Positions 16,799 to 32,399 of a stretch of 32,763 nucleotides of DNA are shown piece after piece (the stretch's first letter is position 1; each line of letters begins with the position of its first letter). The stretch is from the NCBI GenBank assembly GCA_030019475.1, contig JASEER010000026.1:1-32763 (forward strand). Reading direction: 5' to 3'. Source of the DNA: Thermoanaerobacterales bacterium. Its GTDB lineage: Bacteria > Bacillota > Desulfotomaculia > Desulfotomaculales > JASEER01. The translations under genes were made by a program, and so were the position numbers. The notes beneath the pieces were generated by a model. That model did not search any database. It saw only the letters and a program-made list of their open reading frames with translations, and was not told where the DNA came from.

Positions 16799-16913
16799 AT
16801 GTTCGGGCCGGGGTATCTTTTTCCCCCGGCCCGGGAGGCATTGTCCCTTCCCGTGTCGAATTTTCCCCTAAACCTCCAAAACCTGGCTGGGTTTGCACCC
16901 CGGGGGTGACGGA

Positions 16914-18602
16914 ATGTTCAGGCTCTGCTACGTGTGGGCGGTCATCGGCCTGGGGCTCTACCTGCTCATCCAGTCCTTCCCGGCCCTCGACCTGGACCTC
17001 GCCGCCCGTTTCGGCGCCCTGGTCCTGCTGGGGGTCCTGGCGGAGTGGCTCGTGGTGTCCTTTCCGCACGGGCAACTGTCCAGCGGGTTCGCCGTCGTCC
17101 TGGCGACCTTTCTCGTGTTCGGACCCGCGGCCGCCATGTGGGTCAATGGCCTCGCGACCCTGGTCGGCCAGGGGATCGTCAACAGGGGCAACTCATTCCG
17201 CACGACCCTCTTCAACGCCGCGCAGCACGTTCTCGCCGTGTCCGGCGGCGCCTGGACCTACGCGGCGCTCGGCGGCGGGGTGCCGGACGGGGGCCGCCTG
17301 GCGGCGGGCAACATCGTGCCCCTGCTGGGTTTCGCCGCTGTCTACTTCGCGTTGAACCACCTCCTGGTCTACTTCTACCTGCACCCGCGGCGGCGGGCCT
17401 TCCCCTCCATCAACTGGCCCGACACCCTGCGCTGGGACGCCGCCCTGTACCTCTTCGCGCTCCCGGTCGCCGCCCTGATGGCCTACCTCTACCGGATCGC
17501 CGGGGAAACGGCGGCCTTGCTGTTCTTCCTCCCGATCCTGGCCCTGCAGCTGTTCCTGCGCCGCGCCGTCAGGCTCGAGCTGACGAACCGCGAGTTGACG
17601 GTCCTCTACGAGGTGGCGAAGCGGCTCGGCACCAGCCTGCACGTCAACCGGCTGATCGAGATCATCCTCAGCGAAACGCGGCGGATCCTGCCTTACCACA
17701 CGGCGGCCGTCTTCCTCTGGGACGAGGAGCGGGAGTTGTTCCACGCCTGTGCCGTGCGCAGCCCCTACGCCGACGACATCCGTGCCATGGTCGCCGGACG
17801 GGATGAGGGGGTCGTCGGCTGGGCGGCGGAGCGGAAGGAGCCGGCGATCGTTGAAGACGCGCGGGACGACCCCCGTTTCGCCGGGGAGCCGGGGCTGGCC
17901 CAGTTCCTGCGCTCCCTGATCACCATCCCCCTGATGGTGGAGGACGAGGTCCTGGGCGTCTTCCTGGTGGGGGATCGCCGCCCGGGGGCCTACGACCGGC
18001 GCAACCTGCACGTCCTGACGATCATCGGGGGACAGGCCGCCGTGGCTATCTACAACGCCCTCCTGTGCGAGCGGACGGCGCGCCTGGCCTCCCGCGACCC
18101 CCTGACGGGCCTGGCCAACCGCCACCAGTTTATGCTCCGGGCGCGCGCCGAGCTGGACCGGGCGCGGGAGGAAGAGGAACCGTTGAGCCTGCTGCTCCTA
18201 GAATTGATGAACCTTGCGGAGGTCAACGCCCGCTACGGACAGGCGTTCGGGGACCGGGTCCTGGTCCAGGCGGGCCGCATGCTGACCGCCCATCTGCCGG
18301 CGACGGCGGTCGTCGCCCGCTACGGGGGCCGGGTCTTCGCCGCCCTGCTGCCCGGCGTCGGGGAGGTCGCGGCCGCCGAGACGGCCACGGGCCTGGCCCG
18401 GGCTCTCGAGCAGCGACCCATCGGCGACGGGGAGGGGCACGAAGTCCTCCCGGCGGTGGCCGCGGCGGCGGCCGCCCTGTCCCGCGGCGTCATGGAACTG
18501 GACGATCTGCTGGCCGCGGCCGAGGAGGCCCTGCGCCACGCTGCGGATGAACGCAGGGCCGCCGCGGGCTGGACGCGCGCCCGGGGCGCCCGGCCGCGAT
18601 GA
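16914..18602 (+). CDS. Membrane GAF protein with degenerate GGDEF domain
   Basis: A 562-residue protein: about seven membrane helices (residues 1-215), a short coiled linker, a GAF domain (about 235-385, GVVGWAAERKEPAIVEDARDD) and a GGDEF-type domain (about 397-555) beginning DPLTGLANRHQFM. The active-site signature is changed to GGRVF (residues 471-475), and the metal-binding Asp in the usual LLLxDIDxFKxIND is Glu/Met in LLLLELMNLAEVNARYG. It is therefore unlikely to make c-di-GMP and may be a sensor or effector. ATG 16914 is preferred over TTG 16893, which precedes the hydrophobic start. The stop overlaps the comFC ATG by four bases. Confidence 0.85.
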   Translation: MFRLCYVWAVIGLGLYLLIQSFPALDLDLAARFGALVLLGVLAEWLVVSFPHGQLSSGFAVVLATFLVFGPAAAMWVNGLATLVGQGIVNRGNSFRTTLFNAAQHVLAVSGGAWTYAALGGGVPDGGRLAAGNIVPLLGFAAVYFALNHLLVYFYLHPRRRAFPSINWPDTLRWDAALYLFALPVAALMAYLYRIAGETAALLFFLPILALQLFLRRAVRLELTNRELTVLYEVAKRLGTSLHVNRLIEIILSETRRILPYHTAAVFLWDEERELFHACAVRSPYADDIRAMVAGRDEGVVGWAAERKEPAIVEDARDDPRFAGEPGLAQFLRSLITIPLMVEDEVLGVFLVGDRRPGAYDRRNLHVLTIIGGQAAVAIYNALLCERTARLASRDPLTGLANRHQFMLRARAELDRAREEEEPLSLLLLELMNLAEVNARYGQAFGDRVLVQAGRMLTAHLPATAVVARYGGRVFAALLPGVGEVAAAETATGLARALEQRPIGDGEGHEVLPAVAAAAAALSRGVMELDDLLAAAEEALRHAADERRAAAGWTRARGARPR

Positions 18603-24356: not shown

Positions 24357-24872
24357 TTACTGCATCTGGTATATCGGGGGCTGCTCCAGCCACCCCTTTA
24401 TTTTCCCGTACTTGCACAGGTCGTTGAAAATGTCCAGCTCCTCCTTGGCGAACCTGATGAAGACGGCACGCAGGGGATCGTTGGTGATAACGGAGCGGAT
24501 GGTGCGGATGTGAGAGTCCAGGAACCCCTGAATCCCCGTGAAGACCTGCGAGAACAAGAACCTGTCCTCCATCAGGGTACCGCTGACCGGGATATTCACG
24601 CTCTTGGGAGGCCTGTGCGGCAGGGGCATTTCATACCTGTTCATTTCCTCTTCCAGCGTGTTGACCTGTTTTTCCAGGGCCTCAGCCAGCCCTTTTCGTA
24701 AGACGTACTTGAATTCGGGGTCGTGGACGAAATTGAGATAAAGCTGGGTTTGTTCGATGATGTTGTACCTCGAAACCAGCTGGTCCCACAGGGCGAACGC
24801 TTCTCCACAATCCAAAACGGGTTTTTTAGCATTTTCAGCCTTGCCGATGTGGTAGTTGCCTATCTGAACCAT
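24357..24872 (-). CDS. DUF3231 family protein
   Basis: A 171-residue minus-strand gene. LWDQLVSRYNIIEQTQLYLNF, EMPLPHRPPKSVNI, FTGIQGFLDSHIRTIRS, TNDPLRAVFIRFAKEELDI and KYGKIKGWLEQPP are the conserved blocks of DUF3231, a helical-bundle family of spore-formers related to spore-coat CotF-like proteins; members usually carry two repeats, here only one. The start is ATG 24872, ten bases after GAGGAGG; the in-frame ATG 24917 adds 15 residues that would include the ribosome site. Its base composition is visibly less GC-rich than its neighbours. It converges with prfB. Exact function unknown. Confidence 0.82.
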   Translation of the reverse strand: MVQIGNYHIGKAENAKKPVLDCGEAFALWDQLVSRYNIIEQTQLYLNFVHDPEFKYVLRKGLAEALEKQVNTLEEEMNRYEMPLPHRPPKSVNIPVSGTLMEDRFLFSQVFTGIQGFLDSHIRTIRSVITNDPLRAVFIRFAKEELDIFNDLCKYGKIKGWLEQPPIYQMQ

Positions 24873-25002
24873 ATCCGGCGAACCTCCTCTTCCATCCTTT
24901 CTCATTAACTTAGCCAACTATCCGCCGGATATTGCAATCCCGCACAGTTATTTTATGGCACCCGGGCCGGCTCTACCCGATCCGGGCCGGTAATAGTTCG
25001 GG

Positions 25003-25097
25003 TGGAGGAGGGAAGTGGGAATCGAACCCGACCCCGGCCGCACTTACGGTCGGCCAACGGATTTGCAGTCCGCGGGGAGCCCAGCTCCTTTCCCTCC
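25003..25097 (-). tRNA. tRNA-Sec-like tRNA-Cys(GCA), tRNA-ReC type
   Basis: Ninety-five bases including an encoded CCA (25005-25003). The acceptor stem is eight perfect pairs, GGAGGGAA (25097-25090) with TTCCCTCC (25014-25007), and the discriminator is T (25006). The D arm is tight (GGAGC/GCTCC with a 3-base loop, or 4 pairs with a 5-base loop). The anticodon loop CTGCAAA gives GCA (25066-25064) on a 5-bp stem. A long variable arm GGCCG/CGGCC (25055-25051, 25040-25036) and a TTCGATT loop follow. An 8-bp acceptor, short D loop and long variable arm are tRNA-Sec features, while U73 and GCA are cysteinyl-tRNA synthetase identity elements. This matches the tRNA-ReC class of Desulfotomaculum relatives. 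Confidence 0.9.
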
Positions 25098-25238
25098 ATA
25101 GCATATATTCTTCATTATTAATAACAACCCTCTATGAATACCATAACCTTTTGGAATGTAAATTCCGCCCAGGCCCTAACGGCCCTGCATTTCCTGTCGC
25201 GCGGCAGGAGTCGGCGTCGAAAGGAAGAATAGGTAGGA

Positions 25239-26135: not shown

Positions 26136-26945
26136 ATGGACATCGCGGCTCTGGAACAGAAGGCCCGGGAGATCCGCCGCCACATCATCCGCATGGTCGG
26201 AACGGCCGGGTCGGGGCACCCGGGCGGGTCCCTCTCGGCGGCCGATATCGTGACCGCCCTCTACTTCGCGGTGATGCGCCTGGACCCGGCGCGGCCCGAC
26301 TGGCCGGACCGCGACCGCTTCGTGCTCTCCAAGGGCCACGCCGCCCCGGTGCTCTATGCCGCCCTGGCGGAGCGGGGCTACTTCCCGGTGGACGAGTTGG
26401 GGACGCTGCGGAAGCTGGGCACCCGCCTGCAGGGCCACCCGGACATGAAGAAGCTGCCGGGGGTGGAGATGTCGACGGGCTCCCTCGGCCAGGGCCTCTC
26501 GGCGGCCAACGGCATGGCGCTGGCCGCGAAGCTGGACGGGAAGGACTACCGCGTCTACGTGCTCCTGGGCGACGGGGAGATCCAGGAGGGGCAGGTCTGG
26601 GAGGCGGCCATGGCCGCGGCCCACTACAAGCTGGACAACGTTACGGCCATCGTGGACTTCAACGGCTACCAGATCGACGGCCCGGTGACCGAGGTCATGA
26701 ACCCGGAGCCGATCGCCGCCAAGTGGTGGGCCTTCGGGTGGCGCGTCCTGGAGATCGACGGGCACGACATGCGGGCCATCCTGACGGCCCTGGACGAGGC
26801 GCGGGCCACCGAGGGCCGGCCGGCGGTGATCGTCGCCCGGACGGTCAAGGGCAAGGGCGTATCCTTCATGGAGGGCCAGGTCGATTGGCACGGGAAGGCA
26901 CCCAAGGAGGATCAGGTACGGGCCGCCCTGGCGGAATTGGGATAG
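26136..26945 (+). CDS. Transketolase, N-terminal subunit
   Basis: Thiamine-pyrophosphate-binding half of a split transketolase in the non-oxidative pentose phosphate pathway. The 269 residues hold the GTAGSGHPGGSLSAADI start, the DRFVLSKGHAAP segment, EMSTGSLGQGLS and the TPP/magnesium motif GDGEIQEGQVWEAAMAAAHY (about residues 147-166) followed by NVTAIVDFNGYQIDG. ATG 26136 lies behind AGGAGGT. The C-terminal partner follows after 15 bases; split transketolases are common in Clostridia and archaea. It works only as a heteromer with that subunit. Confidence 0.95.
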   Translation: MDIAALEQKAREIRRHIIRMVGTAGSGHPGGSLSAADIVTALYFAVMRLDPARPDWPDRDRFVLSKGHAAPVLYAALAERGYFPVDELGTLRKLGTRLQGHPDMKKLPGVEMSTGSLGQGLSAANGMALAAKLDGKDYRVYVLLGDGEIQEGQVWEAAMAAAHYKLDNVTAIVDFNGYQIDGPVTEVMNPEPIAAKWWAFGWRVLEIDGHDMRAILTALDEARATEGRPAVIVARTVKGKGVSFMEGQVDWHGKAPKEDQVRAALAELG

Positions 26946-26960
26946 GGGGGAACGAAGACC

Positions 26961-27902
26961 GTGCAAGAAAAGATCGCCACCCGCGAGGCCTACGGCAAGG
27001 CGCTCGTGAAGCTGGGCGAGGAGCGGCCCGAGGTCGTGGTGCTGGACGCCGACCTGGCCAAGTCGACCAAGACCATAGACTTCAAGAAACGCTTCCCGGA
27101 CCGCTTCTTCGACTTCGGCGTGGCCGAGGCCAACATGGTCGGCACCGCCGCCGGCCTGGCCGCCTCCGGCAAGGTACCCTTCTGCAGCACGTTCGCCGTC
27201 TTCGCCACCGGCCGGGCCTTCGACCAGATCCGCCAGAGCGTGGCCAACACGAAGCTGGGCGTGAAAATCGCCGCCAGCCACGCCGGCCTGACGGTGGGCG
27301 AGGACGGGAGTTCGCACCAGTCGGTGGCCGACATCGCCCTCATGCGGGCGCTGCCCAACTTCACGGTTTTCGTCCCGGCGGACGCCGCCGAGGTCGAGGG
27401 GGCGGTGCGGGCGGCGGCGGAGACCAACGGACCCGTCTATATCCGCCTCGGGCGCTCGCCGGTGCCCACCCTCCACGGCAAGGACTTCAAGTTCGTGCCG
27501 GGCCGGGCGGTCTGGCTGCGCCGCGGGCGGGACGCAACGGTCGTCGCCTGCGGGATCATGGTCGAGGCGGCCCTGCGCGTGGCCGAGGCCCTGGCCGGAG
27601 ACGGCCTGGAGGTGGGTGTGCTCGACATGCACACCATCAAGCCGCTTGACGCCGAGGCGCTGGCCGAGGCCGCCGCGGCCAGCGGCGCCATCGTCACCGC
27701 CGAGGAGCACAGCGTCATCGGCGGCCTGGGCGGGGCGGTGTGCGAGGCCCTGGCCGAGCTTCACCCCGTTCCGGTCAAGCGCATCGGGATCCGGGACACC
27801 TTCGGCGAGTCGGGCAAACCCGGCGAACTCCTGATGAAGTACGGCCTGACGGCCGACGGCATCGCCGACGCCGTGCGGGAAGTTGTCAGGCGCAAGGGAT
27901 AA
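26961..27902 (+). CDS. Transketolase, C-terminal subunit
   Basis: The 313-residue partner of the preceding subunit, covering the pyrimidine-binding and C-terminal domains. Recognisable stretches are ATREAYGKALVKLGEERPEV cut at the first domain, VVLDADLAKST, FFDFGVAEANMVGTAAGLA (with the catalytic Glu that activates TPP), DGSSHQSVADIALMR and VYIRLGRSPVP, and a late EEHSVIGGLGGAV. Start GTG 26961 follows GGGGGGAACGAAG. A strong terminator follows the stop, so the yitT-transketolase unit probably ends here. Confidence 0.95.
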   Translation: MQEKIATREAYGKALVKLGEERPEVVVLDADLAKSTKTIDFKKRFPDRFFDFGVAEANMVGTAAGLAASGKVPFCSTFAVFATGRAFDQIRQSVANTKLGVKIAASHAGLTVGEDGSSHQSVADIALMRALPNFTVFVPADAAEVEGAVRAAAETNGPVYIRLGRSPVPTLHGKDFKFVPGRAVWLRRGRDATVVACGIMVEAALRVAEALAGDGLEVGVLDMHTIKPLDAEALAEAAAASGAIVTAEEHSVIGGLGGAVCEALAELHPVPVKRIGIRDTFGESGKPGELLMKYGLTADGIADAVREVVRRKG

Positions 27903-30961: not shown

Positions 30962-32080
30962 ATGGATCAAGGAACTGGTTTTGCTGTTATGGATCAGCGG
31001 GTTAAACATGAGGAGCCCTTAAAACGGGATAACAAAACGGCTGCCGGAGATGCCGGGCAGGAAACGCCGTGCAGCGAAAGGGCATTTTTTCGCCTGGTTC
31101 CCGGCGTAGGTGAAGTCGGCATTTTTTCCACGGCGATGGAAAAGGTTTTCGGGCAAGCAAAAAAGCTGCACGCCGACCGTTTGGTACCCGTCCTTATCGA
31201 AGGCGAGACGGGTACGGGCAAGGACATAGTCGCCCGGTATATCCACCATGGCGAAGAGAACGTCACAGAGCCGTTTGTTACCTTGAATTGTGCGGCCATT
31301 GCCCCGGGCAACGCGGAAAACGAGCTGTTCGGTTACGTGCCCGGAGCCTATAACGGCGTCTTGCTGAAAGGGAAAAAGGGTTGGCTTGACATGGCCCAGC
31401 GCGGAACTCTGTTTCTGGATCATGTCGCCGAAATGCCTCTCAACGTCCAGGCCAAACTGCTACGGGTGATCGAGGACTGGGCTTTTTTCCGGGTCGGCGG
31501 CTTGAGAAGGGTCGAGGCGGACGTCAGGATTATTTGCTCCACTAACGCTAACCTATCGGCAAAGGTGGAAAAAGGGGCGTTTCGTGCCGATCTGTATTAC
31601 CGCCTGAGTGTCGCCCGTCTCTATCTTCCCCCACTGCGCCAACGTAAGGAAGAAATCCTGCCTCTTGCCCATATGTTTCTCACACGGTTTGCCCACGAGA
31701 AAGGGAAGAAGTTCCGGGAAATCAGCGCCGAGGCGGCCCGGATGCTTACCGCCTATGAATGGCCGGGTAACGTGCGAGAGCTTAAGAACGCTGTAGAGCT
31801 GGCTGCATTAATGTGGGACGATGTCGTCTTGCGGCCCGCACACCTGGAAATCGCTATTGGAGCCAGATCCGTGGCCGGGCCCCCGCATGCGGAGGTAATA
31901 GACTGTAAGAATTTCTCTCTCCCCCTTGAAGGACTGCCGCTTGAAGAGTACAACAGCCGTATCATTCTTAAAGCACTGGAGATGCATTACGGTAATAAGA
32001 CCAGGACGGCGAGATATCTGGGTATTTCGCGCCGGTCCCTTGATTGCCGTCTGAAACGCCTCAGTAATTCACCTATATGA
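30962..32080 (+). CDS. Sigma54-activator-like AAA+ regulator with altered motifs
   Basis: A 372-residue transcription regulator: short N-terminal region without a recognisable sensor domain (about 1-60), an AAA+ sigma54-interaction domain (about 65-290) and a Fis-type helix-turn-helix at the C-terminus (about 330-372: NKTRTARYLGISRRSLDCRL). Walker A is GETGTGKD (81-88). The sigma54-contacting GAFTGA loop is GAYNGV (128-133), and Walker B is GTLFLDHV, with His replacing the catalytic Glu (154). It may bind DNA and sigma54 poorly or have lost ATPase-driven activation. No Shine-Dalgarno precedes ATG 30962; ATG 30989 is an alternative. Target genes are not evident. Confidence 0.85.
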   Translation: MDQGTGFAVMDQRVKHEEPLKRDNKTAAGDAGQETPCSERAFFRLVPGVGEVGIFSTAMEKVFGQAKKLHADRLVPVLIEGETGTGKDIVARYIHHGEENVTEPFVTLNCAAIAPGNAENELFGYVPGAYNGVLLKGKKGWLDMAQRGTLFLDHVAEMPLNVQAKLLRVIEDWAFFRVGGLRRVEADVRIICSTNANLSAKVEKGAFRADLYYRLSVARLYLPPLRQRKEEILPLAHMFLTRFAHEKGKKFREISAEAARMLTAYEWPGNVRELKNAVELAALMWDDVVLRPAHLEIAIGARSVAGPPHAEVIDCKNFSLPLEGLPLEEYNSRIILKALEMHYGNKTRTARYLGISRRSLDCRLKRLSNSPI

Positions 32081-32251: not shown

Positions 32252-32399
32252 GACCCGCTCAGGGCAAAGTCACCGAAAGGTGGCGACGCAAAGCTACAGG
32301 GGCTAAGGCGGTATGCCGCTATGCCCGCCAGTTGCCGGGTAAGGTCCAGAATTTATGTCTTCTGGCATCGGACCCGCCCCAACCGGCACGGGTCTTTTT
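32252..32399 (+). promoter_or_regulatory. c-di-GMP-I (GEMM-I) riboswitch with terminator
   Basis: The aptamer core spans about 32253-32340: AGGGCAAA, P2 GTCACC-GAAA-GGTGGC with a GNRA tetraloop, GACGCAAAGC, P3 GGGC...GCCC with the CTAAG/TATG tetraloop-receptor bases and GCGG/CCGC tip, and closing TTGCC. The position that contacts the ligand (third G of AGGG, 32264) is G, as in c-di-GMP rather than cGAMP receptors. A terminator follows: GACCCG (32371-32376) with CGGGTC (32389-32394) and a T run. It would control cheW. Confidence 0.9.

Follow-up and report, generated by a model that had tools for sequence, protein, structure and literature searches.

Transfer RNAs of the group termed tRNA-ReC or selC* are reported to receive cysteine, to be delivered by SelB and to decode UGA codons. 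One review (PMC11415595) states that a tRNA-Cys(GCA) of Desulfotomaculum nigrificans with a tRNA-Sec-like structure decodes UGA with cysteine via SelB and not via EF-Tu, which agrees with what the original prediction had stated for Desulfotomaculum tRNA-ReC. The tRNA studied here is a member of this known group. It is encoded in a stretch of 32,763 nucleotides (the window), which is contig C26 of a draft genome of 2.28 Mb that is 96% complete.

The gene, hereafter ReC, is 95 nt long and lies on the minus strand of the window (Table 1). From 5' to 3' it is laid out as GGAGGGAA A GGAGC UGG GCUCC CC GCGGA CUGCAAA UCCGU U GG, followed by the variable arm and by G GU-C-GGG UUCGAUU CCCAC UUCCCUCC U CCA. 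The acceptor stem GGAGGGAA/UUCCCUCC has 8 bp, and the T stem pairs as G-U-[C]-G-G-G with C-C-C-A-C. ARAGORN identified the gene as tRNA-Cys with the anticodon GCA, and the anticodon loop CUGCAAA is identical to that of the canonical tRNA-Cys of the genome. The hallmarks of canonical tRNA-Sec, a UCA anticodon and G73, are absent, the corresponding elements being GCA and U73. With the Rfam model for tRNA-Sec (RF01852), ReC scored 48.6 bits against a gathering score of 47. This was the best match within the tRNA clan, so that the ordinary tRNA model RF00005 was beaten. The canonical tRNA-Sec of the same genome scored 78.6 bits with RF01852, indicating that the two shapes are related yet clearly distinct. 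The original prediction had described tRNA-Sec hallmarks (an 8-bp acceptor stem, a very short D loop and a long variable arm) together with a GCA anticodon, U73 and encoded CCA, and had named no strand. The sequence, the covariation described below and the ARAGORN call all agree with this description, and in the comparison of the tRNA and tRNA-Sec models no better normal tRNA fold was found.

Table 1. Positions of ReC, its structural elements and adjoining features in the window
Feature	Position	Strand	Basis
tRNA-ReC gene (tRNA-Sec-like tRNA-Cys, GCA, U73, encoded CCA)	25003..25097	-	ARAGORN, Rfam RF01852, model R1, 26-sequence covariation
Acceptor stem, 5' strand, 8 nt, GGAGGGAA	25090..25097	-	partner 25007-25014; compensatory change in 5/8 pairs, 99.5% of cells paired
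Acceptor stem, 3' strand, UUCCCUCC	25007..25014	-	covariation, 26 orthologs
D arm, 5-bp stem GGAGC/GCUCC and 3-nt loop UGG	25076..25088	-	sequence; 100% of cells paired, 26 orthologs
Anticodon GCA	25064..25066	-	ARAGORN and sequence
Long variable arm, about 20 nt	25034..25053	-	alignment A1, columns 46-66; compensatory change in 6/8 pairs, 81.6% of cells paired
T arm, 5 bp and one bulged C at 25030	25015..25032	-	alignment A1, pair counts
U73 and encoded CCA	25003..25006	-	sequence; invariant in alignment A1
Putative LysR-type box ATAG-N7-TTAT	25121..25135	-	differs from ATAA-N7-TTAT at one position; lies 24-38 nt before the tRNA
ORF, 186 aa, DUF3231	24357..24917	-	Pfam PF11553; directly downstream of the tRNA, same strand

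A BLAST search of 60 relatives recovered ReC orthologs with 73-87% identity spread across the order. Their anticodon was GCA wherever ARAGORN made a call, and the aligned sequences have GCA, U73 and CCA. The cloverleaf was tested on 26 orthologs with an 8-bp acceptor, a 5-bp D, a 5-bp anticodon and an 8-bp variable-arm stem and a 5-bp T stem carrying a single bulge. In total, 93.8% of the stem cells were paired and 18 of 33 pairs showed compensatory change on both sides, a result matched by none of 500 shuffles; the support was lost when stem partners were slid out of register. The orthologs in many relatives and this covariation argue that the ReC gene did not arise by chance. In an unconstrained consensus fold the T arm was shifted; its register was therefore taken from the standard form of the T loop and the counts of paired cells. 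The bulge at the T-stem site is a single nucleotide in most orthologs and is missing in three. A potential extension of the anticodon stem (CC24-25/GG44-45) involves positions that barely vary and thus give no covariation signal.

To map the distribution of ReC, the 26 aligned ortholog sequences were turned into a covariance model (R1). ReC matches with a checked GCA anticodon scored 74-112 bits across the order and the phylum, compared with at most about 69 bits for canonical tRNA-Sec. ReC of the window, with 100.1 bits, thus falls within the range of its orthologs; a match of 75.6 bits in another genome also has GCA. By a count of the model search results, a score of 84 bits or more is reached in about 63 of the 113 genomes of the order. 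Because selB and selA are nearly universal in the order (109 and 107 of the 113 genomes), their presence alone says little. Among 22 ReC genomes that were rechecked, a strong tRNA-Sec match was found in all but one, a genome that is 72% complete. Full reassignment, with ReC present and tRNA-Sec lost, was considered for four genomes and rejected, as all four have tRNA-Sec by RF01852. One genome carries three ReC copies, the third of which (L170:1444-1539) has the anticodon ACA instead of GCA and retains U73.

A specific ReC pattern, which gave no match in 100 shuffles of the window, was found in 40 stretches of GTDB species genomes. Seven of these lie on contigs of metagenome-assembled genomes whose titles name Actinomycetota, in three cases Ca. 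Solincola. An eighth stretch, titled Actinobacteria, is outside this count, being probably mis-titled and derived from a genome of the order. The phyla listed for the group in a second review (PMC7609411) are Firmicutes, Thermodesulfobacteria, Nitrospirae and Proteobacteria; Actinomycetota is absent from that list. No ReC was found in the viral contigs searched, and the plasmid BLAST hits were limited to short pieces of genes such as secA.

The original prediction had read the tRNA as a back-up for selenoprotein synthesis, and selA, selB, selC, selD, UGA-containing selenoprotein genes and a canonical tRNA-Cys were all found in the genome. The selB and selA genes are adjacent on contig C20, with one match above the selB cut-off in the genome. 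Canonical tRNA-Sec (UCA) lies on C4 and canonical tRNA-Cys (GCA) on C1. A single full-length cysS is present together with cysE, the tRNA not being among them. In two fdhA genes an in-frame UGA occupies the established Sec position (ARL-U-H), as it does in two selD genes on C32 and C2 (SG-U-A), and a hairpin directly follows each UGA in single folds made without shuffle control. All needed parts are thus present in the genome, and ReC could be charged with cysteine, bind SelB and back up selenoprotein synthesis in this organism. A search downstream of the tRNA for a second selB or a CysRS without anticodon domain, as in a selB*/cysS* operon, found neither. A LysR-family gene is divergent from the second selD; it had no NCBIfam match at E 1e-40 that would place it in the selenium subfamily.

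As GCA pairs perfectly with UGC and reads UGA only by mismatch, ReC might instead be a SelB-bound tRNA for SECIS-directed cysteine insertion at UGC/UGU, or a buffer of free SelB. A tRNA-Sec with GCA from Aeromonas salmonicida has indeed been reported to read UGC (PMC11415595). We consider this improbable, because the selenoprotein genes examined here have UGA and the D. nigrificans tRNA, according to the same review, decodes UGA with cysteine.

In 18 of 55 distinct loci of ReC with GCA, yedE (TIGR04112, a putative selenium transporter) follows downstream on the same strand, mostly within about 110 nt. A LysR gene lies before or near ReC in 9 of the 55; those scanned as representatives gave matches to NF040786 (selenium metabolism-associated). 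Neither yedE nor a selenium LysR was present at any of 42 control tRNA loci, a set that includes 21 loci taken as tRNA-Sec matches from ReC-bearing genomes. One Actinomycetota contig has the arrangement gltX-cysE-ReC-cysS in one direction, and on another ReC follows a selD that contains UGA; both support a link to CysRS and selenium, independently of sequence. A gene for a double-cubane-cluster reductase (NF040772) stands beside ReC at six loci, and a tRNA-Lys(CTT) gene lies near ReC in several relatives. An ordinary cysteine tRNA, unusual in its variable arm and delivered by EF-Tu to UGU/UGC codons, would account for GCA, U73 and the anticodon loop shared with canonical tRNA-Cys. This is very unlikely given that ReC is conserved next to selenium genes in many relatives, that the genome already has a canonical tRNA-Cys, and that the covarying 8-bp acceptor stem is a published barrier to EF-Tu.

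In the window, neither yedE nor a selenium LysR adjoins ReC. Its neighbours are the DUF3231 gene, prfB and yitT. The ortholog loci searched have no DUF3231 homolog next to them, and a tie of this gene to the tRNA is unsupported. A functional tie to prfB, about 780 bp away, whose product acts at UGA, was also considered and was dropped because prfB homologs were likewise missing next to the ortholog loci covered by the search. Promoter and terminator scans at the tRNA gave nothing convincing. Elsewhere in the window, a c-di-GMP-I riboswitch aptamer (32253-32339, plus strand, 77.5 bits) lies at the end and follows a gene (30962-32080) for a regulator of the sigma-54 type, and a GGDEF protein is encoded at 16893-18602. 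The N- and C-terminal halves of a transketolase are encoded as two separate genes (26136-27902, plus strand).

Gibbs sampling of the regions upstream of ReC yielded the dyad motif ATAA-N7-TTAT, which conforms to T-N11-A, the pattern typical of operators for LysR-type regulators. The exact box occurs in 32 of 49 non-redundant upstream regions, compared with 1.5 ± 1.3 in dinucleotide shuffles (largest value 6, in 200 shuffles), and strong enrichment was seen only for a spacer of 7. It was found downstream of ReC in 1 of 49 cases and upstream of canonical tRNA-Sec in 2 of 37 (Fisher p 4e-9 versus ReC, a value that overstates independence because the 49 regions share ancestry). The box also precedes one selD of the window's own genome and four of the six double-cubane reductase genes, where it hints at membership in the same regulon. 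The LysR encoded beside ReC is a candidate binder of the box. The window's copy, with its one mismatch, is not significant as a lone site in one sequence. The imperfect box and the lack of yedE/lysR linkage in the window would suit a decaying or silent copy that survives by chance and has no present role in the genome, a reading to which we give very little weight since stems, identity elements and CCA are all intact and the R1 score is that of a normal ortholog.

We therefore favor, with a probability of about 0.8, the view that ReC is a second aminoacyl-tRNA source for selenoprotein genes beside the canonical Sec pathway and that, across the order, a LysR-type regulator most likely couples ReC expression to selenium status. 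ReC would act as reported for the D. nigrificans tRNA, inserting cysteine at UGA after delivery by SelB, and the genes carrying UGA would need to tolerate cysteine. For the window organism, this activity is suggested by the literature on its relative and by the intact identity elements. According to PMC5322559, HrsM, the Methanococcus ortholog of LysR_Se, represses cysteine-containing hydrogenases when selenium is present. By analogy with HrsM, the neighbours and the box suggest that ReC would be made when selenium is short, its switch being set by selenium status. More tentatively, and with somewhat less than even odds, ReC, yedE, the double-cubane reductase gene and in part selD may form one selenium regulon, defined by ATAA-N7-TTAT boxes and a selenium-type LysR (LysR_Se/HrsM type), in which selenium shortage shifts SECIS-linked UGA from Sec toward Cys. 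If so, a recoding event would be under transcriptional control, and a switch like that of Methanococcus HrsM would here act on a tRNA. The proposed purpose of the group, to back up selenoprotein synthesis, has reportedly been based so far on activity in E. coli (2018 paper on tRNA-ReC).

Regarded by itself, the window tRNA extends a known group by one genome. Within the literature that could be consulted, the possibly new element is the context of ReC with yedE and the selenium LysR together with the upstream box. This context and the conserved box suggest a specific connection to selenium supply that lends itself to testing and comes with both a candidate regulator and a candidate operator.

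Among the described systems, tRNA-ReC of D. nigrificans (Vargas-Rodriguez et al. 2018, cited in PMC11415595) has in common with ReC of the window the tRNA-Sec-like body, GCA, cysteine identity, the bacterial lineage and a Sec pathway in the genome, a likeness drawn from the description in the review. The selC* tRNA-Cys (Mukai et al. 2017; see the review PMC7609411) share the 8-bp acceptor, the long variable arm, U73 and GCA (or UCA). They are reported there as 8/4 with a bulged A51a, whereas in ReC of the window the T stem has 5 bp and the bulged nucleotide is C (C or U in orthologs). The same review describes selB* and cysS* with some selC* of Deltaproteobacteria; the window genome, in contrast, has a single cysS and one selB match, neither beside the tRNA. 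Canonical bacterial tRNA-Sec (RF01852) has the overall fold in common with ReC, which exceeds the gathering score of that model, but differs in UCA, G73, a longer acceptor-D linker, a 6-bp D stem and a T stem without bulge. The relatives from the Pelotomaculum family have a body of the same family, score 66-79 bits with R1 and differ by UCA and A73 or G73, changes that indicate loss of cysteine identity. This intermediate form occurs in seven genomes of the family and is presumably tRNA-ReU.
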